A DNA stretch of 64,000 bases from Umbilicaria muhlenbergii. Its lineage: Eukaryota; Ascomycota; Lecanoromycetes; Umbilicariales; Umbilicariaceae. The notes below the pieces were generated by a model that worked only from the letters and a program-made list of their open reading frames with translations, searched no databases and was not told where the DNA came from. The stretch spans positions 5,585,818 to 5,649,817 of the forward strand of contig KK106983.1 in the NCBI GenBank assembly GCA_000611775.1, read 5' to 3'. Of the stretch, positions 411 through 35,605 are shown one piece after another; position 1 is the first letter of the stretch; the number at the start of each line of letters is the position of its first letter. The position numbers and the translations under genes were made by a program.

Positions 411-2293
411 CTACGTCTCCTTAATCAAATCCGCCCCCTTCTCCGTCACCGCATACGTACTCGCCATGATATTCCCACTTACATGCGCCGGAAACACTCG
501 CATCCATCACCCTCAACCCCTTCACACCCTTAACCCACAACTTCTCATCCACCACCTCCCCTAGCGCCGCCGTGCCAATCAGATGATACTGCGTCGTGAT
601 ATAATTCCTCAACACCTCCTCTCTCGCCTCCGCCGTCGAAATATCCTCCTCCGGCCGCGGCTGCACCCGCTCCCCCAACTGGTCTTTCAGATGCCCACTC
701 CGCGATACTTGATCCATCCACTTGAGCCCCGCGGCTAGGATCGTCGCGTCCGCTGGGTGGTTGAAGTAGCCCGGGTCGATGCGCGGGTGCGCAGTCGGGT
801 CGGAAGACTCGATGTGCACGCTTTCTCTGCTGAAGGGGTGTTCCAGACACATGAGTAGCGCGACGCGGTTCTTGCCCTCCGGCGGCGGGCCTAGCACGAG
901 GGTTTGGTCGCCGCCACTGGCGAGGTCCATGTTTGCGGGGATGAAGAAGACTTGCAGGTTCGCAAAGGTGGGATCGCGGAGTTGCTGCACGATGAGCTCT
1001 TCTTGCTTCTTCTCCAGCGCGGTGAGGTGCCCCGTGTAGGCGTTGATTTTGCGGCTGGTGGAGTCGAGCTCGTCGGCGGTGGCGATCGAGGAGTAGGAGA
1101 CGAAGCCCATGCACATGCCGGGACTGCCGTAGGGGCCGGTGCGTTCGGATTCGTAGGTTTGGAGGTGCTCACGCCCGTAGGCTTCTTGGTGCAGGGAGTC
1201 GAGCGAGCGGATGCCGGGGGCGCATTCGAATATCATGCCGCCGAGGACATGGTCTTGGAAATTGGCGCTGACGGCCGGGTTCGGGACTAGGCAGTCTATG
1301 CCTGCTTTTTTGAGGACTTGGAGGTCCCCGATGCCGGATAGTTCGAGGAGCTGGGGGGTTTGGACCACGCCGGCGCTAAGGACGACTTCTTGTCTGGCCA
1401 TCGCTCTGTAGGTCTTTTCTCCATGCATGAAATCTACGCCTATTGCGACGAGTTCTTAGCCTTGTTTAGTATCGAAGATCACTCAGGTAGCAAGCGCTTC
1501 AGTCAAGACTTTCAAGTTCTTGCGGCCCAGGTTCGGTCCGAGGTAACCTGAGGCTGCGTAGCTTCGGTTGCCTTTGTCGTTGGTACGGTCGATGGCACCC
1601 AGTGAGGAATAGAAGCCATAGTGGTCCCCGCCCCAGGCATCCTTTAGGGTGATTTCTTTGCCGGTAGCTTCGTAGCAGGCCTTGATGAAGTTCTCTTCCA
1701 TCGGCGTGCGGTAATCGTTGAAGCTCGTATGGATGGGTCCATTCGTGCCATGTACTTCGTCCATTTGTTTGTGCGGCATGAGCTCAACGCCTTTGATGTC
1801 TTTGTCGGGGAGGTCGAGCGTTTGATGCTTTTGGAAATAAGGCACAAGGTCATCCCAGCCCCAGCCTTTGTTGCCGATGATGGAATTCCACCCGTCGTGG
1901 TCGGCTTTGGAAGCTCGCACGTACATCAGATAGTTGATGGCGCTCGATCCACCGAGGAGCTTGCCCCTAGGTACAGAGTAGACCTTGTTACCCGCTTTGG
2001 GCTGTGTTCACGGCTCAGTGAGATGGCACAAGACTAAGGGTAGAGGGTCTGACCTGAGGAGTAGAGTTCATCATCCAATCATACTCCTTTCCTCCTGGTA
2101 AGGTTGGGAATAGAGAGGGTGTCTGAACATTCGGATCGTCCATTTTGCTTTTGCCGGCTTCGAGCACGCCGACTTTGACGTTGGGATCCTCTGTCAAGCG
2201 TGCTGCAACGACAAGTCCAGCCGTACCACCTCCGACGACGACATAGTCAAAATCGTCCTTGCAAAACTCATCGACGCTGCAGAGTGCTGACAT
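411..2293 (-). pseudogene. GMC (glucose-methanol-choline) oxidoreductase, broken copy
   Basis: FAD-dependent alcohol/choline-type oxidoreductase. Exon 1 (2293-2054) carries the Rossmann motif VVVGGGTAGLVVAARL and LEAGKS. A 52-nt intron (2053-2002) leads into a long exon with the GMC signature region RGKLLGGSSAINYLMYVRA, then GVVQTPQLLELSGIG, and near the C-terminus TQYHLIGTAALG with the catalytic His. Two in-frame stops interrupt the long exon (TGA at 1485-1483, TAA at 1458-1456), although protein similarity continues in the same frame on both sides. Near 495 the frame shifts: MDASV should run on as FPAHVSGNIMAS, which is readable in another frame and ends at 411. With three lesions this is most likely a pseudogene of a once ordinary host gene. 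A start at 2332 is also possible. Substrate cannot be told. Confidence 0.85.
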
Positions 2294-3755
2294 TGTGATT
2301 GAGAATATCAACTTTTCGTTGTAGCTCTTCAATAAAGATATTCAAGTGAACAACCCGTACAAGTCTCTCGCAAATCTCAGTGCATTCAATTCAAGGAGTG
2401 CATGCAACGGAGCAACGGTCGATACATACTTACTCTGTTCAAGATGGCCATATAAACCCCCGCCCAGGGCGGAGGGGAGGGACATGGAGATCCTCCATAC
2501 CTCATACTCGGCGCAGCTGTATCCGTAAATGCAAGGAACAACACCGCGATGCGTATCTGATCCAATAAAATCCCTCTATCCAGCCCCAAGTTATATCCTA
2601 TACCCGTACTTTAGTTGCCATTTCTCCTTTACCCCGCATTAACTCCGAACCAAACGGTTTCACGTGGCGACGAGCCGGTTCTGATTCCATCCACCCCCCT
2701 CTTTCTTTATACGCATTAGAGGGGCATAGCACCTTATTCATAAGCAGAGCGAAGGAAGGATTAGATCTGTCTGGAAGTTTGGGCGCCGCACAAGATCAAG
2801 TAGCCTTATTAGTTAAGGAGGATGAAAGATGATGTGTGGTAAATATAACAGTGCAATTCACAGATTTCATAGCTTGTAGCAGTAAAGATTAAGGGATTCC
2901 TCCAACTGACCTAATTGGATGGTGGTGCGCCTGGTTCCTTTGAGTTACGGATATCAAAAAGATCTTACTTAGAATGATCTCAATTGTAGAGAAGTATTGA
3001 GAAGCGGTGTACTGTAGGCACATCGTCAAAAAGGCAGCCGCTCAACTCCTCGAGGAGTCAACAATGAAAACAGTACGTACATATGAAAGGGACATAGTGC
3101 GGAAATCTACACTCTTGGGAGAGCTAATGATCACTTCGTTCACTTGCTGCTGATGGTCGCCCCAGTCTCCACTTCCAGTTATGACTGTGCCCCTGGCTGT
3201 GCCGTCCAAGATTTACCGTATGGGGGGTTGAGGATTGCCCTAGTCCATAATAAGTTAAGGATTGAGGAGCGCCGCAAAGCTTCCAAGTTCTTCTTAACCT
3301 GCCGACTGCCACTAGAGGACTCTCCAATGGCCACGAGCAAGCGACATATCAACGCCTCCCTATCACATATCGACACCTATGACTCCGTGTTTGCCGATCA
3401 GTGCTGGAGCTTGGAGATCGAAGCGCGGTCTAACGGCACATGAGTCTACACGACCAAAAAGCTAGGAAGGGACCTTGATCCTTAAGGCCTAGAACTCAGA
3501 GCGCCGGGTACTCCTCCGCATGGATTACCACTTAAGCTTCCGCAGTGTGCCTATTCGGACTCTACTATTCCCAAACGTTGTTGGATGAAGGACGACGTCA
3601 TATAATCCTTGACTTTAATCTTCCTCCAACCTAGAAGATTTGCTTCGAATATTAATGCTAACTCCCCTTTCCAATGTTACCATTCTCATTGTGTCTTCGC
3701 TGTGTTTCATCTTTCATTCGCACTACCATGACCGTGTTCTAGTCTTCCACATGCA
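2294..3755. other. Intergenic region without a recognisable gene
   Basis: Short ORFs exist on both strands but none resembles a known family or shows convincing splice structure. The last part should hold the promoter and 5' leader of the MoeA-like gene. Confidence 0.6.
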
Positions 3756-5198
3756 ATGGCCATTCCTTACCACCAAGCCCTTAATGTTCTCGCGGAGGCT
3801 GCAAAAGAGATCTCCCAGAAGTTCGAAGATGACGAAGATGTTGTTCCAATCACTGCAGCCGTGGGTCGGATATGCAAGCTTGATTACAGAAGCCCGCGTT
3901 CGACACCTCCTTACGACACCTCTGCAATGGATGGCTTTGCTGTCAGTTCGGAATTGACCCAGAACGCTTCTGTTGCACATCCGCTTAGATTCCGTAGCTG
4001 CGGAATAATCGCGGCGGGAGACCGGCCCATCTCTTTGGCATGCACTTTGGAGGATTGCCCGCCTTGCGTGGAGATCATGACTGGCGCTCCCTTTCCAATT
4101 TCGACATCTGCTTTGCAATTCGATAGCTGCGTCCGTGTGGAGGACACCAAATCTGTGCTAGGACCTAACGGAAATCTGTTCGTTGAGATCGTCCGACCTG
4201 TGTTGCCATTCCAGAACAGACGTTTTGCAGGTACAGACTTCCACAAAGATGAGCTAGTTGTTTCCAAAGGATCAACGGTGAAACCACCGCATGTTATGGC
4301 ATTGGCATCCTTGGGGATCAGCAGAATAGCTGTGTATAGAAGGCTGCGAATAGCTGTACTGTCAACTGGAACAGAATTGCTCAGCTTCGAGACTAATCCT
4401 CATGATACAAGCCATGTAAGGGACAGTAACGGTCCATATATCCAAGCATCGCTAGGAGAGCTGGGTGCAGATGTCACATACATAGGTATAATGGAGGACG
4501 ATCAACAAAAGTTTGAGAATACAGTCCGTCATACCCTAGCCAGAGGGTCGTACGATGTCCTTATCACGACGGGTGCGGTGTCTATGGGAAAGTTCGATTT
4601 CATACGAAACGGCCTTGCTTGTTTGGGAGCTGACGTATTGTTTCACAGAGTAGCGATCAGGCCTGGGCATCCTGTTCTGTTTGCTACGCTCTTGTCGGCG
4701 CAACCTGAACTCGCGGACGGCAGTGTTTTGCCTGAAATGCATCCACACTCACCTTTGAGTCCTATCGAGAGGACACGAAAAACCGCAATCTTTGGACTTC
4801 CCGGAAATCCCATGGCTACTGCTGTGTCTCTTCGTTTCCTTGTTGCTCCATATCTTCGGTACGTGCATGGCCAGCCGTTGGAGAGTCCTTCGTTCCTGCC
4901 ATTGGCTACCATCAAGCCCTCTCCACAGCCAGAGAGAGGTCAAATGGCCTGTGGAACTGCCGTGGAACCGATCATGAAGAAGCCTCCGCACTTACGCGCA
5001 TTTTGGCACGGCAGAATTAATTCAACGCCACCTGATGCAATGGTCGAGGTGCACCAAGATCAGGGATCTAGCAAGGTCAGACCGCTGGTCAGCGCTGACT
5101 GCTGGGTCGTCGCCCCGGAAGGATGCGAACAGGTCCGCGCTAGGGATATAATTGAGAGCTTCCCGTTGCAGCCGCCTTCTCTTGGTGCAATTGGCTAA
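3756..5198 (+). CDS. MoeA-like molybdopterin molybdenumtransferase, stand-alone
   Basis: A single uninterrupted exon of 480 codons. It belongs to the MoeA / gephyrin E-domain family, which inserts molybdate into (adenylylated) molybdopterin to give Mo-molybdopterin in the cytosol. Visible landmarks in order: PPYDTSAMDGFAV (about residues 50-62), EIMTGAPFP, LASLGISRIAVYRRLRIAVL with STGTELL, the loop ITTGAVSMGKFDFIR, IRPGHPVLFA and FGLPGNPMATAV. These match the family in order and spacing. Fungal CnxE-type proteins are usually MogA-MoeA fusions of roughly 650 residues or more; this protein has only the MoeA half. The next gene downstream on the same strand is a bis-MGD-type oxidoreductase and the one after is MobA-like, so this copy may be a paralogue dedicated to that enzyme (inference). 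The start has A at -3 relative to the ATG. Confidence 0.92.
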   Translation: MAIPYHQALNVLAEAAKEISQKFEDDEDVVPITAAVGRICKLDYRSPRSTPPYDTSAMDGFAVSSELTQNASVAHPLRFRSCGIIAAGDRPISLACTLEDCPPCVEIMTGAPFPISTSALQFDSCVRVEDTKSVLGPNGNLFVEIVRPVLPFQNRRFAGTDFHKDELVVSKGSTVKPPHVMALASLGISRIAVYRRLRIAVLSTGTELLSFETNPHDTSHVRDSNGPYIQASLGELGADVTYIGIMEDDQQKFENTVRHTLARGSYDVLITTGAVSMGKFDFIRNGLACLGADVLFHRVAIRPGHPVLFATLLSAQPELADGSVLPEMHPHSPLSPIERTRKTAIFGLPGNPMATAVSLRFLVAPYLRYVHGQPLESPSFLPLATIKPSPQPERGQMACGTAVEPIMKKPPHLRAFWHGRINSTPPDAMVEVHQDQGSSKVRPLVSADCWVVAPEGCEQVRARDIIESFPLQPPSLGAIG

Positions 5199-5724
5199 AA
5201 AAAACTACACTGCTAACGAAAGGGTTGTAGAAGTATCTACTGAAACTTTTTGGTAGACCTTTAAGAAACTGTGATGCCTTGAAGGAAGCTCCAAGTAAAG
5301 GCGGCATTTTTGGAAAGCACCTAAACGGTAAAATAGGCACATACACAAAGATATACCAGTATCTCATCAATTAAGCAATGTTACAATAGAATAGCTTGGT
5401 TGATGTCCTCGGGTACGGGATGGTCGATCTGTGTCGTAACCTTCAAGATCCTTGCTATTGAATCAATGCGGTAGCGTTGGACCCAATCCATGGGAATGAG
5501 ATAGGCTAGCACGTCACTCTTTGTAATTAGGAATAGCCACGATGCTAGCGACGCGCATTAGGTATTTCCCATGGATATAAGAGGGATTTCGAATAGATAT
5601 CCCATCCGTTGTCTGCACAATCAGGCAGTTGGAGAGTCAACGTCTTCTGTGCGTGACGGCCAGGAACAGCCTAGTCAGCCGAAAATCGCTCGTTACCAGG
5701 ACCGGTAGCCCAACGGCCTGAGCA
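5199..5724. promoter_or_regulatory. Intergenic space upstream of the molybdopterin oxidoreductase
   Basis: 527 nt between two same-strand genes. It should hold the 3' end of the MoeA-like transcript and the promoter of the oxidoreductase. A TATA-like GGATATAAG lies about 150 nt before the next ATG. No other motif could be assigned with confidence. Confidence 0.35.
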
Positions 5725-8700
5725 ATGGGCTCTCTACCGGAGGCCCCCGAGACGTATCAGACCCGCGATGCCATCGCCGACATATACGGCCCAAGAACGC
5801 CGTATAAGCATGAGTGGCCGACACGAGTCGATCAAAGACAGATTGACCAAGCAGATAAATGGGTACAGAGCGCTTGTGTGCTCTGCAGGTGAGTCTAGTG
5901 GAAAAAAGGCAAAAACCATGCGAATATTGCAAGTACTAATTCAGAAAGCAATGGCTGCGGAATGGACATCGGCGTCAAGGAGGGAAAAGTCGTTGGTGTC
6001 CGAGGCCGCGCTGCAGACCGAGTAAACAAGGGGCGGTTAGGTCCGAAGGGTATGCACGGGTAAGACTTTCAGGGCGTTGCAACCCTCAGGAGTACGGACA
6101 AAAGAAGTGGCGGTCTTCGGCCGGGGGCTCTTCGACTTACTCAACATACAAAAAATATTAATGAGAAATGTTTGATATGGAGATAACAGAACTCATTAAG
6201 CTCTAAAATCTCCATATCAAGGTTCCCGCACACATTGTTTTGTTTGTTGAGTCATCGAGGGGTCCTCCGACTGAGAACTGCCACTTGTTTTGTCAGTGCG
6301 CCTGCCTTAACATGGACCGATCGTGTTGAATTGACGCTCCGACTAGTTGGCAATCGATACATTCGAAGGACCGCCTGAAGTATCCACTCATTCGTAAGAA
6401 TGGCAAACTCGAGCGAGCTTCTTGGGACGAGGCTATGTCTCTCATTGTCGAGAAGACCAAGGATACCTTATTCAAAGGAGACTGACGTCGCACGGAATCG
6501 GCTTTTACACATCAGGACAACTTTTGTAAGCCCTAAATATCACTGACCCGTGTTTTTCCGAGCAAGCACTGATGAATTCACAGTTTGGAAGAGTATTATG
6601 CGCTTGCAGTCGTGGGCAAAGGCGGTTTGAATACTCTGCATATGTAATGTTCTCGATGTTGTGTTTATGTCGGCGTCATCGTGACTGACTAAATCCAGGG
6701 ATGGCATGCCCACGCACTCCGCACCCTTGGATCTGCATGAGAAACGCTAATGGCCACCCTCTAGGAAACACTCGACTCTGCACGTCAACAGCTGCTGCAT
6801 CCATGCGTGAATCCTTCGGATGCGATGGCCAACCAGGGTCTTACACCGACGTTGATTATACCGACTGCATCTTCATTGTAGGGCACAACATCTCTGCTAC
6901 TCAGACCGTGCTATGGTCGCGCATGCTGGATCGTCTGGATGGATCAGATCCACCGAAAGTCATTGTCGTCGATCCTAGACGGTCTAACACAGCGAAAAGG
7001 GCTACAGTACATCTGGCACCGCGCATTGGGACTAACGTGGCTGTATTGAATGGCATCCAGCACCTTCTATTCCTCAACAATTGGGTCAACGAGGATTATC
7101 TCGCCAAACATGTCATTGGTCTCGACGATCTACGCGAGAAAGTCAAGTCCTACACACCAGAGCGTGTGGAAGAGATCACGGGGATTCCCACAGAGGATCT
7201 TCGAAAGGCGGCAGAGATCATAGGCACAACTAAAAGCCTGCTCTCAACCGCCTTGCAAGGTGTATACCAATCTAACCAGGCCACGGCAAGTGCTTGCAAG
7301 GTCAACAATATCAATTTGCTTCGTGGCTTAATCGGCAAGCCTGGTAGCGGTATCTTCCAGATGAACGGCCAGCCAACTGCCCAGAACAACCGTGAAGCTG
7401 GATGCGACGGGGAGTATCCAGGTTTCAGGAATAATGCCAACCCTCAGCAGATGCAGGAGATTGCCGATATATGGAACCTCGAGCTCCATAAGATTCCTCA
7501 TTGGAACCAACCCACGCACATCCAGATGATGCTCAATTTCATCGAGGCCGGTACCATGGAGATGTTCTGGATCAGTGGGACGAACCCTTTGGTTAGCTTG
7601 CCCAACCTTCCAAGAACTCGTGACCTTCTTACAAAGCCAGAGCTATTCGTTGTGTGCCAGGATATCTTCATGACGGAGACTGCCTCTATTGCAGACGTAG
7701 TCTTGCCCGCCGCTCAATGGGGGGAGAAGACGGGCTGTTACACCAACGTTGACCGTACTGTGCATCTTTCTCACAAAGCCGTCGACCCACCCGGAGAAGC
7801 AAAGTCAGACCTGGAGATCTTCCTCGATTTTGGCAAACGTATGGACTTCAGAACCAAAGACGATACACCTTTGATGCCGTGGAAAAGTGCTGAGGAAGTC
7901 TTCAACGAGTGGAAGAGGATGTCGAAGGGACGCCCCTGCGACTACTCTGGGATGACTTATGAGAAGCTTACCGGAGGGTCTGGCATCCAATGGCCTTGCA
8001 CCGAGGAATACCCATTCGGAAAACAGCGACTCTTCGAAGACGGCGTTTTCTTTACCGATGTAGACTATTGCGAGACCTATGGTCACGATCTCGAAACCGG
8101 AACACCATATGGCAGAGATTACTATAAGAAGATCAATCCAGCTGGAAGAGCTATCTTGAAAGCGGCAGAGTATGTTCCCCCTTTGGACGCGACTGACGAC
8201 GACTATCCGCTGCAGCTGTCAACTGGCCGGACTGTGTACCATTTCCATACCAGGACAAAGACCGGCCGGTCAAAAGCACTTCAAGCCGCTGATCCAGCAC
8301 CAAAGATTGAGGTGTCAGCGGAGGACGCCGCGGCATTCGGAGTGAAGGACGGGGAGGATGTTGTTGTAACATCACGAAGAGGGGCTGTGGAGATGCCTGT
8401 CTCTGTCAGTGGTATTGCAAAAGGTCAAGTCTTCATACCATTCCATTTTGGATATTTCGATAAGCCAGACGATAGATCGAGAACTGCGAATGAGCTGACG
8501 CAGGGTAAGATCCCTGCTTACTATCATAACATCGTATGCTGACGATCCCCAGAGCAATGGGATCCCATCTCCAAGCAGCCCATGTTCAAATCAGGCGCCG
8601 TCCGAATAGAAAAAATTCCCGACAGGACAAATGAGGTTCAACTCCACGAGAAACAAACAGCGGCTATCGAATCGGTTGGAAAAAGCAAGCCCAATGCTCA

Positions 8701-9241
8701 AGCTGTGAAGGCCCAGGATCCCACCATTCGACACCTTGGATACTGGCTCGGTGCGACCTATGAAGCCATCGACGTGCTGATGGACGTCTTCGATCGTCTG
8801 CTCTATCGAATTCTCCTCGACAAAGAACTCCATTCGGGTCTCAGATTCCAGCGGGACATCAGTCAAGCCATCTACGACCGCATGACTCCGTTCGTGGAAA
8901 AGTACCACGAGATGAAAGATTATGGCCAAAGCGTCTCGAAAGCGCTGAGAGACACACTCTTTCCGATTCAAGACGAGAAGGCAGGCGCGTTCGAGACGCT
9001 CAACCTCCTGCAAGGGCTGTCCATGTATCTTGCGCATATTACCGGCCATCTTACGGCACTTGACCCGGCTAGTCAGGCTCTTTGGGACAAGGAGTTCATG
9101 GATGCTGTGGGGTTTGCTACCGAGCAGGTACAAAGGCAGCATGCTTGGGCAACCGCGCAGATCAAGGTGAGATCCCCGCAAACGCTGTTAGTGCCTAGTA
9201 AGCAGGAAATCCCTTATGAGAGGATGTTTCTCAGGGAATAG
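5725..9241 (+). CDS. Molybdopterin oxidoreductase, DMSO-reductase superfamily (nitrate reductase / formate dehydrogenase-like)
   Basis: Exons as read: 5725-5888, 5949-6059, 6347-6525, 6584-6643, 6699-6703, 6765-8504, 8553-9241; about 980 residues. N-terminal 4Fe-4S-type motif C51-x2-C54-x3-C58, but G86 (GRLGPKG) stands where the fourth Cys is expected. The Mo-binding core includes KYPLIRKNGKLERASWDEAM, SHGIGFYTSGQLF, NTRLC (about residue 179; this Cys aligns with the Mo ligand of Nas/Nap enzymes), VIVVDPRRSNTAKRA, GLIGKPGSGIFQMNGQPTAQ and MTETASIADVVLPAAQWGEK. The dinucleotide-binding region has STGRTVYHFHTRTKTGRS and PFHFGYFD. An acidic-helical C-terminal domain of about 200 residues follows. 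No flavin, haem or NAD domain is seen, so the electron partner is unknown, as is the substrate. One frameshift lies in exon 3 (about 6460-6485): the frame reading EKTKDTLFKG runs into TGA at 6483 while similarity resumes one base off. It could be real decay or a consensus error. Confidence 0.9.
6158..6220 (+). repeat. Interleaved inverted repeats inside intron 2 of the oxidoreductase
   Basis: Two perfect inverted repeats overlap in A-B-A'-B' order. A is TTAATGAG (6158-6165) with CTCATTAA (6192-6199). B is TTGATATGGAGAT (6172-6184) with ATCTCCATATCAA (6208-6220). In RNA this arrangement is an H-type pseudoknot with stems of 8 and 13 bp and short loops. It lies in an intron of 287 nt (6060-6346), far longer than the other introns of this gene (48-61 nt). 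Confidence 0.6.
6704..6764 (+). other. GC-AG intron following a 5-nt micro-exon
   Basis: The conserved run LHMDGNTRLC is only recovered if exon 4 (ending CAT AT at 6643) joins GGATG (6699-6703) and then resumes at 6765. The second intron has a GC donor (GCATGC), a branch-like GCTAAT and the acceptor CTCTAG. Both junctions keep the frame. Confidence 0.6.
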
Positions 9242-9535
9242 ATATAGTGATGGGCCATTGGCTGTATATACGTACAATGGCACAGAGAGTAGCGTGTTGA
9301 TTGTCGTTGGATACAATATAACAAGGCTGCCAAATAGGCGCGATAAGTGGCAGTTCACGGTTGGGACTTGGGGAACTCCTGAGTAGATCATCAATGTGCG
9401 AAGATATCAGGAATATTTTGGATTTGCTGCTGAGAGTCCTTCGATCTTTTCTGCCAGTAGCCGCAACTGATCTGATAGTGCGCCTGCCATAAGCTGTCAC
9501 ACAGTACCAAACTCTAGTGATACGCACTGAAACAT

Positions 9536-10246
9536 TCATATCGGTTCCCTTCCTCTAAACATCTTCATCGCCGCATCCCAATCTTCTTTTGTGTTGGTAC
9601 CGAAAATCCACTGCTCCTCCGTTGGTCTCACCAGCTTGCCTCCCATCTGTCTGACTACATTGCTTGGGCTGAGCCTGCCCTTCGCAACATTCTGTTTCAG
9701 AATTTCCAGTGCAGCAGGACTCCATATTCCTAATAAGGGCTCGCAATAGCCCTCTGCATTAGCGAAGCAGGTGACAGGTGCAACATAATTTAGTAAAAGC
9801 TCTTGTAGAGCTCCGGCTGTCAAGAGTGGGAAATCACATCCAGCAACAAGCCATGTAGTAGTAGGTGAGAAGGCGTAGGCAGACAGGAGTCCAGCGGCAG
9901 GTCCGATGGAGGAGCTGCTTGTGAGGTTAGGGTCTCTGAACCCATCATATAATGGCTGAACACGCGGGTATGCTGAGCCCAAGACGCGCATGTCCAGAGA
10001 TTCCCAATTTGACTCCTCTCGCAGTGACATGTAAAGCGTCTCTGCCGAAGGACAGGCACGATGTAAATGCTCTAGAGTGTGCTGGTACAATGGACTCCCG
10101 TCCGGGAAGAGGAGCAGATGTTTCGGACTTCCCATTCGCGTCGAAAGACCTCCAGCAATTAGTAGTGGCTTGACATCCTCCATGGCAGCACCTTCTGCCT
10201 TTATTAACATTATCTGACGACTCTTTCCCAGCTGTCGTATTCCCAT
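9536..10246 (-). CDS. MobA-like molybdenum cofactor guanylyltransferase
   Basis: A single exon of 236 codons. MobA transfers GMP from GTP to Mo-molybdopterin, giving the MGD form used by DMSO-reductase-family enzymes. The nucleotidyltransferase signature is clear: LLIAGGLSTRMGSPKHLLLF near the N-terminus (family LAGGxSxRMGxxK), IGPAAGLLSAY, VAGCDFPLL (Mg-binding Asp), CEPLLGIWSPAALE, and a C-terminal GTNTKEDWDAA resembling the NTPED motif. Family proteins are about 190-210 residues, so the inner Met at 10183 (MEDVKPLLIAGG) may be the true start. The gene is convergent with the oxidoreductase (294 nt apart) and divergent from Swc3 (196 nt). A closely related alternative is MocA/CTP-type transferases, but the EPLL and NTPED-like motifs fit MobA better. 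MobA is normally prokaryotic. Confidence 0.88.
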   Translation of the reverse strand: MGIRQLGKSRQIMLIKAEGAAMEDVKPLLIAGGLSTRMGSPKHLLLFPDGSPLYQHTLEHLHRACPSAETLYMSLREESNWESLDMRVLGSAYPRVQPLYDGFRDPNLTSSSSIGPAAGLLSAYAFSPTTTWLVAGCDFPLLTAGALQELLLNYVAPVTCFANAEGYCEPLLGIWSPAALEILKQNVAKGRLSPSNVVRQMGGKLVRPTEEQWIFGTNTKEDWDAAMKMFRGREPI

Positions 10247-34040: not shown

Positions 34041-35160
34041 TCAAGCGGTCTTCTTGATCAACCCATCAGCTTCCGTGGCTCGCTGAGCCCATTCACTAAT
34101 CGTACAGTCAGAACCAAATTTCCTAACAGACTAAAGAGTGAAGGATGAACGGCGAAGGGGTTACTCACGTCCAACTACCATCATAAAGTCTCCTGTTGTC
34201 CGGCCTGCCCCAATTTGCCTCATTCAGCGCGGCATCAATGACCGCCGCCGTAACCCCTGTACCACAGCTGCTGATAATAGGCTTCTCCGGGTCGATACCC
34301 TTACTCTCAAACAACTTCGCCAGCTCCTCCCCCGGCAACAGCGTCTTCGCCTTCGGACACAGCAAATCAGATACTGGTACGCTGATGCTCCCCGGCATAT
34401 GCCCACTCGGTAGTCCTGGCCTTGGCTCAGGCTCCGTTCCCTTCCACCGTCCCAGGCTTCTCGCATCCAGCACCTGTATTCCCTCAGCCCCCTCTTTCCC
34501 GTAGTCCTTGGCGATCTCCTTCATCTCTGCAAACTTGACCACCATGTACGGGTCCACTGCTGGAACGGCGTAATGGCTGTCCTGTTCCACAACCGCTTCG
34601 ATATCTCCACTTTCCGTGGGATATCCCTGTTCGACCCATAGGCGGAAGTTGTTCAGGATATGCACGTTCGGATGGCCAAAGACCTTGAGTGTCCAGCCTA
34701 CCCGCGGCGCACTGAAGATGCCTAGCTCTTTCGTATCATAGACGACCACTGTATCATCTTTCCTGATCCCTAACTTCTGCATTGCCTCTGAAAATCCCTC
34801 CGCCGTAGGTAGCATGTGTGGGTACTTGGAGTCATGGTCCTTGACTTGGTCAATGTCGAAAAAGCGTGCAGAGGGGATGCGGCATTCGTGGAAGACCTGT
34901 TGACCAGTGCGGCCGTCCGGGTCGTTGGGTAGAAACCATGCTGCGCAGAGTGGGATGATGCGAGGAGATGTGGAGATCTTAGTCGGACTGTTCTTGGTGA
35001 GGGCGTCGGCGAGTTGTTTGGGCGTGACGATGTAGGATTGCAACGAGACGTAACGGCGTTGACTCATTGGTTGGAAGAAGCTCGTGGTACTTGGCTTGGC
35101 GGAGGTCTTGAGCTTCGTGGAAGTCCTGGCAGAGCTACGTAATAGCGCAAGTAGTGCCAT
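34041..35160 (-). CDS. Two-domain rhodanese sulfurtransferase (thiosulfate / 3-mercaptopyruvate type)
   Basis: Two exons (35160-34169, 34095-34041) give 348 residues; the short last exon adds EWAQRATEADGLIKKTA. The N-terminus (about 35 residues) is rich in Arg, Ser, Thr and lacks acids, as in a mitochondrial targeting sequence. The inactive first rhodanese domain spans about 45-190 (ECRIPSARFFDIDQVKD, VVVYDTKELGIFSAPRVGWT). The second, about 205-348, holds VLDARSLGRWKGTEPEPRPG, GHMPGSISVPVSDL and the active loop SSCGTGVTAAVID with catalytic Cys. It moves sulfur from thiosulfate or 3-mercaptopyruvate to cyanide or thiols. The CGTGV(T) loop favours the mercaptopyruvate type, but specificity is not certain. 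Confidence 0.94.
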
Positions 35161-35605
35161 TGTCGATGTTTATTTCAGCGGGTGTTTCATCTTCAGGTTC
35201 ACAAACTTCAAGTATGAAGAGAACGGACGGTTTAAGGCTCCAAGGATGATATTTGCTTGCTAAGCTGGGCAAAGGATCAAGTTCGATCTGTAGTTTGAAG
35301 GCACCAACTCATGCTGCGGATCATCTTGATAAGAGGAGCTTGTGGAACATTATCAATCAGAAGTGGTCCCATAGGGAAAAGCAAGCACCAGTTACGCCTC
35401 TGTTAATCAGATCGCGATCACCCAACCCCGCGTTTTACTTGCACACAAACCAAGCTGTGCCTTCTGGGCGGAAGACCGATCGGCGAAATTTACGTTGTCG
35501 CAAGAGACCCTGAACGCCCGCAGAAGCTAGTACTCTGTTGTCTATAACGAGGATCGTCCTCGACCCAGCCGCCTCCTTCACGCTCCTCGGCTACACTGAT
35601 CGAGT
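35161..35605. promoter_or_regulatory. Bidirectional promoter region, sulfurtransferase / APC11
   Basis: 445 nt between divergent starts. No specific site assigned. Confidence 0.45.

Follow-up and report, generated by a model that had tools for sequence, protein, structure and literature searches.

A bacterial-type DMSO-reductase-family gene between MoeA-like and MobA-like genes in Umbilicaria muhlenbergii: a probable horizontally acquired module

The dimethyl sulfoxide (DMSO) reductase family of molybdenum enzymes is called exclusive to prokaryotes in a passage of one review (PMC10609526), and a passage of another states that eukaryotes lack both counterparts of MobA/B and the dinucleotide form of the molybdenum cofactor (Moco) (PMC9370521). 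As regards MoeA, part of a further paper reports that in fungi this protein has either been lost or survives only as a fusion with MogA (PMC11733289), while the fungal dissimilatory nitrate reductase is described, in a passage of a fourth, as less well characterised (PMC4686598). Here we describe a stretch of 64,000 nucleotides of Umbilicaria muhlenbergii (contig KK106983.1, positions 5,585,818 to 5,649,817; the whole stretch is hereafter the window), in which a MoeA-like gene, a gene for a DMSO-reductase-family oxidoreductase and a MobA-like gene are adjacent. An earlier note on this DNA had proposed such a three-gene island, and the island is borne out by Pfam E-values far beyond chance; the premise of that note, that eukaryotes do without nucleotide-type Moco enzymes, agrees with the cited passages of the two reviews. 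We consider the locus to be, more likely than not, a bacterial module for an enzyme holding molybdenum by two molybdopterin guanine dinucleotides (Mo-bisMGD), acquired horizontally by a fungus.

If this is true, a fungal enzyme with MoeA and MobA side by side breaks the prokaryote-only rule stated in the reviews, shows a cofactor-demanding enzyme crossing domains along with genes making its cofactor, and supplies a gene that would be a candidate for nitrate reduction in fungi. Among open-licence papers, covered by titles, beginnings of abstracts and some passages, none was found to describe a fungal DMSO-reductase-family enzyme with MobA; annotations of the same gene set in other fungi may exist in subscription papers and fungal databases, which lay outside that search.

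The oxidoreductase and its bacterial family

Pfam analysis of the oxidoreductase, carried out on separately read pieces, located domains in three of them, namely Molybdop_Fe4S4 (PF04879, 6.7e-8), Molybdopterin (PF00384, 7.7e-9 and 1.1e-42) and Molydop_binding (PF01568, 1.5e-24), while no Pfam family matched the fourth, C-terminal piece. With both Molybdopterin and Molydop_binding present, the protein belongs to the DMSO reductase (Mo/W-bisPGD, bis-pyranopterin guanine dinucleotide) family. Six plasmid proteins annotated as 'nitrate reductase' (from Hymenobacter, two Deinococcus, Halomonas, Rhodococcus and Streptomyces) match its main exon with 55-60% identity, and the best 40 of 1272 matching plasmid records range from 60% to about 34% identity. 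Of 594 pattern-matched stretches in bacterial genomes, at least 539 code for relatives; the best 80, at 55-60% identity, were taken as loci, and identity reaches 61% in the alignment used for the tree. The fungal protein is collinear with these relatives over its whole length, and no relative was found in the viral contigs searched. The proposal of a bacterial-type enzyme is therefore upheld, since the protein falls inside a bacterial family (55-61% identity) and has the MGD-binding domain.

The cysteine of the GNTRLCT motif, which we take to be the protein ligand to molybdenum, aligns with that of RLCM in the periplasmic nitrate reductase NapA and with the bacterial relatives. A bis-MGD cofactor is suggested by the MGD-binding domain together with the neighbouring MobA. 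The cysteine is followed by threonine, and Met-Asn precedes GQP, in the fungus and likewise in 84/86 bacterial loci (the other two could not be read). Formate dehydrogenases presumably carry His and Arg where the fungal enzyme has Thr and Met, and an F420 enzyme in the structure-database alignment reads RLXHS and LRGQ. The nearest solved sequence is the Desulfovibrio NapA (2jim, E 2.8e-85). For a fused bacterial relative introduced below, L010, the nearest solved fold to the predicted model is also NapA (E 3.7e-50), the model, of the whole fused protein, being of low confidence (mean predicted local distance difference test score, pLDDT, 69), for which reason the docking of its domains was set aside. 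No export signal was seen in the fungal protein by eye.

The iron-sulfur (Fe-S) motif of the fungus has three cysteines and a glycine at the fourth place (CCC-G). The same pattern occurs in 31 bacterial loci, whereas 40 have no cysteines there and 15/86 were unread; the four-cysteine motif was found in 0/71 loci read. All 40 cysteine-less loci are Actinomycetota by title or by place in the tree, and one Arthrobacter (L026) retains three cysteines. With its actinobacterial members (L004, L005 and L015-L086) the family is split into 31/71 three-cysteine and 40/71 cysteine-less loci, a natural series for the loss of an Fe-S site within one enzyme family. Arsenite oxidase, with three cysteines and a 3Fe-4S cluster, offers a parallel to the three-cysteine motif. 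Because the cysteines are gone in some members, electron entry would differ from that of NapA at least in those.

With respect to curated models, the main fungal piece (N-terminus absent) scores below the NCBIfam cut-offs for NasC (326/1100 bits), NapA (220/930) and Fdh-alpha (380/666). Three bacterial relatives also fall short (Fdh-alpha 525, 492 and 521 against 666; NasC 428-459 against 1100; NapA 318-361), so that this widespread bacterial family, with its partner protein and partly lost Fe-S site, has its tested members outside the curated models. The name 'nitrate reductase' amounts to a guess from likeness.

The C-terminus of the fungal protein is a fused partner domain, covered by no Pfam family. 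Its last 172 residues match a small gene that adjoins the enzyme gene in bacteria: a direct search placed the partner gene shortly after that of the enzyme in 79/80 loci (the exception being L070), and in 7/80 it shares one open frame with the enzyme (L009, L010, L019, L021, L034, L064 and L067). It is likewise fused in Halomonas KO116. The fungal domain is modelled as a four-helix bundle (pLDDT 91) most like YciF ferritin-like proteins, with template modelling scores of 0.75/0.80 for 4eru; the best structure match in the PDB has E 3.9e-3 at 12% identity, none reaching 0.001 or less. A di-iron site was considered and set aside, as by eye no conserved ExxH is present in helix 4 and several residues are lost in the fungus. 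Since conserved residues are lost and a di-iron ligand set is lacking, we take the domain to be structural and under relaxed constraint in the fungus.

MoeA, MobA and the origin of the module

The fungal MoeA contains the three domains MoeA_N (9.5e-31), MoCF_biosynth (4.2e-28) and MoeA_C (5.3e-7). Given that published fungal MoeA is only MogA-fused or lost, a stand-alone bacterial-type MoeA is in itself unusual. It matched 24/24 searched enzyme-holding genomes, the best (E 2.5e-62) being that of L010, a groundwater 'Deltaproteobacteria' metagenome-assembled genome (NC_groundwater_926) with a fused enzyme. In the phylum of L010, 30/191 genomes match at 1e-30, the best with 42% identity over nearly the whole length, and in Pseudomonadota 3/249 match at 1e-40. 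A tree was built from rows chosen by likeness to the fungal protein, leaving out the odd rows L109, L112 and L121. The fungal MoeA fell in a clade of 23 rows (support 100/100), of which 21 belong to the phylum of L010 and one to Pseudomonadota (L161), the remaining two rows of Pseudomonadota falling outside it. Gephyrin sits in the opposite half of the tree, and uniting it with the fungal MoeA costs 30 log units (approximately unbiased test, p-AU 0.006). The fungal protein is thus not of the gephyrin/Cnx1E type, having neither a MogA domain nor a common branch with it, and its bacterial type supports the reading of the earlier note.

The MobA-like neighbour also answers to its description: it adjoins the enzyme gene, matches NTP_transf_3 (PF12804, 2.9e-20) and keeps the family motifs AGG-RMG-K, GP-AG, CDFP, EPL and NT. 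It matches 9/24 enzyme-holding genomes, the six best having loci titled Spirosoma, Chitinophaga, Hymenobacter, Mucilaginibacter, Ginsengibacter and Ferruginibacter; Niastella, another of the Bacteroidota, gave no match at 0.01. Among Bacteroidota 63/198 genomes match at 1e-6, with a closest likeness of about 34%. Among Pseudomonadota 0/249 match at 1e-8, an empty result that is uninformative as it had no known positive for control. A PDB sequence search found no match at 0.001. The fungal branch in the MobA tree is long and its placement unsure.

Regarding the enzyme itself, bacterial kinship is clear from the sequence comparison, and the tree does not settle the donor. In an 89-row tree the fungal enzyme joins that of L010 (Shimodaira-Hasegawa-like approximate likelihood ratio test 86), and rare residues common to the two number 11, against 8 for the next best and a median of 1 among 86 rows. 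A closer donor was sought within the class of L010, where the enzyme was found at 1e-150 in 1/58 genomes, that of L010 itself. Judged by the fused state, possible sources are L010, the five Pseudomonadota of the enzyme tree, kin of Halomonas, or Nitrospira.

On the strand opposite to its enzyme, L010 carries moaA, moaC-mogA, a MOT1-type molybdate transporter gene, moeA, a ThiS/MoaD-type gene, moaE and mobA; a ThiF/rhodanese gene lies beyond these Moco genes and an HPP-like gene downstream. The suggestion that the three genes were brought in together is only partly sustained. In its favour, moeA and mobA lie beside a fused enzyme in L010, whose group is also indicated by the trees of the enzyme and of MoeA; against it, the placement of the enzyme is not significant (p-AU >0.2 for four alternatives) and MobA points to Bacteroidota. 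Conserved adjacency, which the note had proposed as a check, is seen in bacteria at L010 and in no other of the 80 loci: within the fetched flanks, moeA or mobA queries match 1/80. As MobA is far from that of L010 and its placement unsure, either no single donor is required for the three genes or MobA has changed too fast.

Proposed function, integrity of the gene and alternative explanations

We propose that the Mo-bisMGD oxidoreductase, a cytoplasmic enzyme, came to a fungal ancestor from bacteria with the helical partner domain already joined to it, and that the bacterial-type MoeA and MobA would have arrived with it or later. Molybdopterin would come from the ordinary pathway of the fungus, MoeA would insert molybdate, as in bacteria, and MobA would attach guanosine monophosphate (GMP), so that two MGD units and the cysteine of RLCT hold molybdenum in the enzyme. 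If active, the enzyme would draw electrons from a soluble donor to reduce a small oxyanion or N-oxide; our likeliest guess for the substrate is nitrate. A nitrate-like oxyanion is favoured because of the likeness to NapA, the lack of formate dehydrogenase residues and the presence of HPP-type genes near 8/80 loci. The latter count comes from HPP queries over flanks of up to 10 kb, Pfam TM_HPP having been tested for L034 only; a gene of this type beside the enzyme suggests a transported anion, and HPP proteins are, as we assume, nitrite transporters. HPP-type membrane genes lie immediately downstream of the enzyme at 12355-12912 in L009, 12313-12939 in L010, 12334-12873 in L034 and 12413-12910 in L040. 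Nitrate as the substrate is one possibility that these comparisons leave short of probable. Quite possibly, though we put it forward tentatively, the locus is the first case in a eukaryote of a Mo-bisMGD enzyme accompanied by MoeA and MobA of its own, a module from bacteria through which some fungi would have a nitrate or oxyanion route apart from eukaryotic nitrate reductase, and a candidate dissimilatory nitrate reductase.

A number of observations weigh against a horizontally acquired, working module. In a 48-row tree (Actinobacteria thinned to 16 rows, two distant rows left out) the fungal enzyme joins L010 weakly, with support of 84/81 and a long branch. Placements with Actinobacteria (p-AU 0.295), five Pseudomonadota (0.526), Bacteroidota (0.223) and L031 (0.414) were not rejected, and with the fungus held among the five Pseudomonadota the likelihood was 1.6 log units above that of the free tree. 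Inside its clade the fungal MoeA has no secure position and does not pair as sister with the MoeA of L010; it also scores below all NCBIfam cut-offs. The fungal MobA falls below the MobA equivalog cut-offs (54.6/164 and 47.9/151.85 bits) and is not close to that of L010 (33.9 bits), which itself gave no NCBIfam match at 1e-30. The Moco operon of L010 may, moreover, be the general one of that genome. In the partner domain, residues kept in 25-26/26 bacterial rows are lost in the fungus (places 30, 95 and 115). Finally, in exon 3 the frame shifts from FKGD to LTSHGIGF, and the 5-nucleotide exon GGATG is unusually small and may instead be a second lesion; the enzyme gene may have lost its function in this strain, possibly recently, a minority prospect that we take seriously.

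These last points are best read against the structure of the gene (Table 1). Introns are confined to the oxidoreductase gene, moeA and mobA being open frames. For the frame break in exon 3 no splice site was found by eye that would account for it. Splicing it out through a strong-looking upstream donor at 6394 was considered and rejected, as by eye this would delete residues conserved in bacteria. Regarding the doubtful intron pair, GGATG would supply exactly the conserved M-D-G of the bacterial HMDGN, and a branch-point-like CTAAT lies upstream of the final AG before the main exon. Repeat-induced point mutation was rejected as an explanation for the breaks: the composite index is negative in 63/63 intervals computed (one N-rich interval was skipped). 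The inverted repeat in intron 2 is possibly a small inserted element.

Table 1. Coordinates, strands and supporting evidence of the features of the island and of two further genes in the window (positions within the 64,000 nucleotides; nt, nucleotides; aa, amino acids).
Feature	Position	Strand	Description	Evidence
moeA-type gene	3756-5198	+	Stand-alone MoeA, 480 aa, intronless, no MogA domain	Pfam, tree
Oxidoreductase gene	5725-9241	+	DMSO-reductase family, fused to helical partner domain	Splice sites, collinear alignment with bacterial proteins
Oxidoreductase exons	5725-5888, 5949-6059, 6347-6525, 6584-6643, (6699-6703), 6765-8504, 8553-9241	+	Exon in brackets doubtful	
Fe-S motif region	5872-6059	+	ACVLCSNGCG...GRLGPKG, interrupted by intron 1	Three Cys, with Gly at the fourth place
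Intron 2	6060-6346	+	287 nt, longer than the other introns	Splice sites
Inverted repeat in intron 2	6172-6193/6199-6220		Arms of 22 nt, 82% complementary, 5-nt spacer	
Frame break in exon 3	6478-6485	+	Frame change	FKGD-stop in one frame, LTSHGIGFYTSGQL in another
Doubtful intron pair	6644-6764	+	GT-AG then GC-AG, flanking 5-nt exon GGATG (6699-6703)	
Main catalytic exon	6765-8504	+	Presumed Mo-ligand Cys (GNTRLCT) through MGD-binding domain (HTRTKTGRS)	
Partner domain	8723-9238	+	C-terminal, predicted four-helix bundle of ferritin-like fold	Homology to separate bacterial gene, model
mobA-type gene	9539-10246	-	236 aa, intronless, start possibly Met at residue 22	PF12804, motifs
GMC oxidoreductase gene	421-2341	-	Upstream of the island, broken-looking	GMC_oxred_N and GMC_oxred_C in order (Pfam)
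Rhodanese-domain protein gene	34165-35169	-		

The strongest rival to the acquired module in working order is a relic of it, that is, a once-working transferred module whose enzyme is now a pseudogene in this strain, with moeA and mobA still open. The frame break and the 5-nucleotide exon, the diverged partner domain and the broken-looking state of the adjacent GMC oxidoreductase gene speak for it. However, the single sure lesion stands in about 980 codons, and the main exon runs for 579 codons without a stop and keeps 109/113 of the columns invariant across 86 bacterial rows. In addition, moeA and mobA remain open and an assembly error is possible; we therefore regard a relic as plausible but somewhat less than an even prospect. 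As to the GMC gene itself, its reading frame contains two stops near 1456-1482 and shifts close to the end of the gene.

The neighbours may not be helpers at all, the MoeA-like and MobA-like proteins acting elsewhere and the enzyme using ordinary Moco or none. Repurposing of MoeA is known elsewhere, as part of one paper indicates (PMC11733289), and both proteins are under the NCBIfam cut-offs. We nevertheless consider this unlikely, because the enzyme has the MGD-binding domain, the motifs of MobA are kept and L010 has moeA and mobA beside the same enzyme. It is more doubtful still that the enzyme is a formate dehydrogenase. Fdh-alpha is indeed the best NCBIfam model for the main fungal piece and for the three bacterial relatives, but every score is under the 666-bit cut-off, and the fungus, like 84/86 bacterial loci, has Thr and Met where we take formate dehydrogenases to have His and Arg.

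An old eukaryotic inheritance, with enzyme and MobA widespread in eukaryotes and unnoticed, might be entertained as our sequence comparison covers bacterial, not eukaryotic, genomes. It appears very improbable, given that, according to passages of two reviews, eukaryotes have neither the family nor MobA/B (PMC10609526; PMC9370521) and that the MoeA found here differs from gephyrin. Bacterial contamination or a chimeric contig, which bacterial-type proteins in a draft sequence with N runs could suggest, deserves next to no weight: it is contradicted by the bacterial frame continuing across four clean GT-AG introns (1, 2, 3 and the last; phases judged by eye from the alignment to bacterial relatives) besides the doubtful pair, the G+C content at third codon positions of the enzyme-gene parts, moeA and mobA (0.48-0.61) is like that of five other window genes (0.49-0.64), and the window also has DnaJ-X, squalene/phytoene synthase, Memo and cyclin genes.

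Comparison with known systems

Among solved structures, YciF-like ferritin-like proteins (4eru, 2gs4) are predicted to share the fold of the fungal partner domain, and differ in that identity is 12% and the fungal domain has no conserved di-iron ligand set. Gephyrin and Cnx1E resemble the fungal MoeA in their MoeA domains, whereas the latter is without a MogA domain and on a separate branch (p-AU 0.006). NapA (2nap/2jim) is closest to the fungal enzyme in solved sequence and fold and has Cys at the place of the molybdenum ligand. NapA is exported and has four Fe-S cysteines, while the fungal enzyme has three and reaches, with its main piece, 220 bits against the 930 of the NapA model.

The bacterial 'nitrate reductase' family (Hymenobacter, Deinococcus, Halomonas, Arthrobacter and Mycobacterium), of which no characterised member was met in the searches made here, is like the fungus in its 55-61% identity, the Cys-Thr and Met-Asn-GQP residues and the partner, and in the CCC-G pattern of 31 loci. 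It differs in that the fungal gene is interrupted by introns, carries a frame break and ends in a diverged partner domain. L010 resembles the fungus in its fused enzyme, in its moeA, which falls in the same clade, and in having a mobA nearby; it differs in its full Moco operon (moaA, moaC-mogA, MOT1, moaD-type and moaE), its ThiF and HPP-type genes and its distant mobA.

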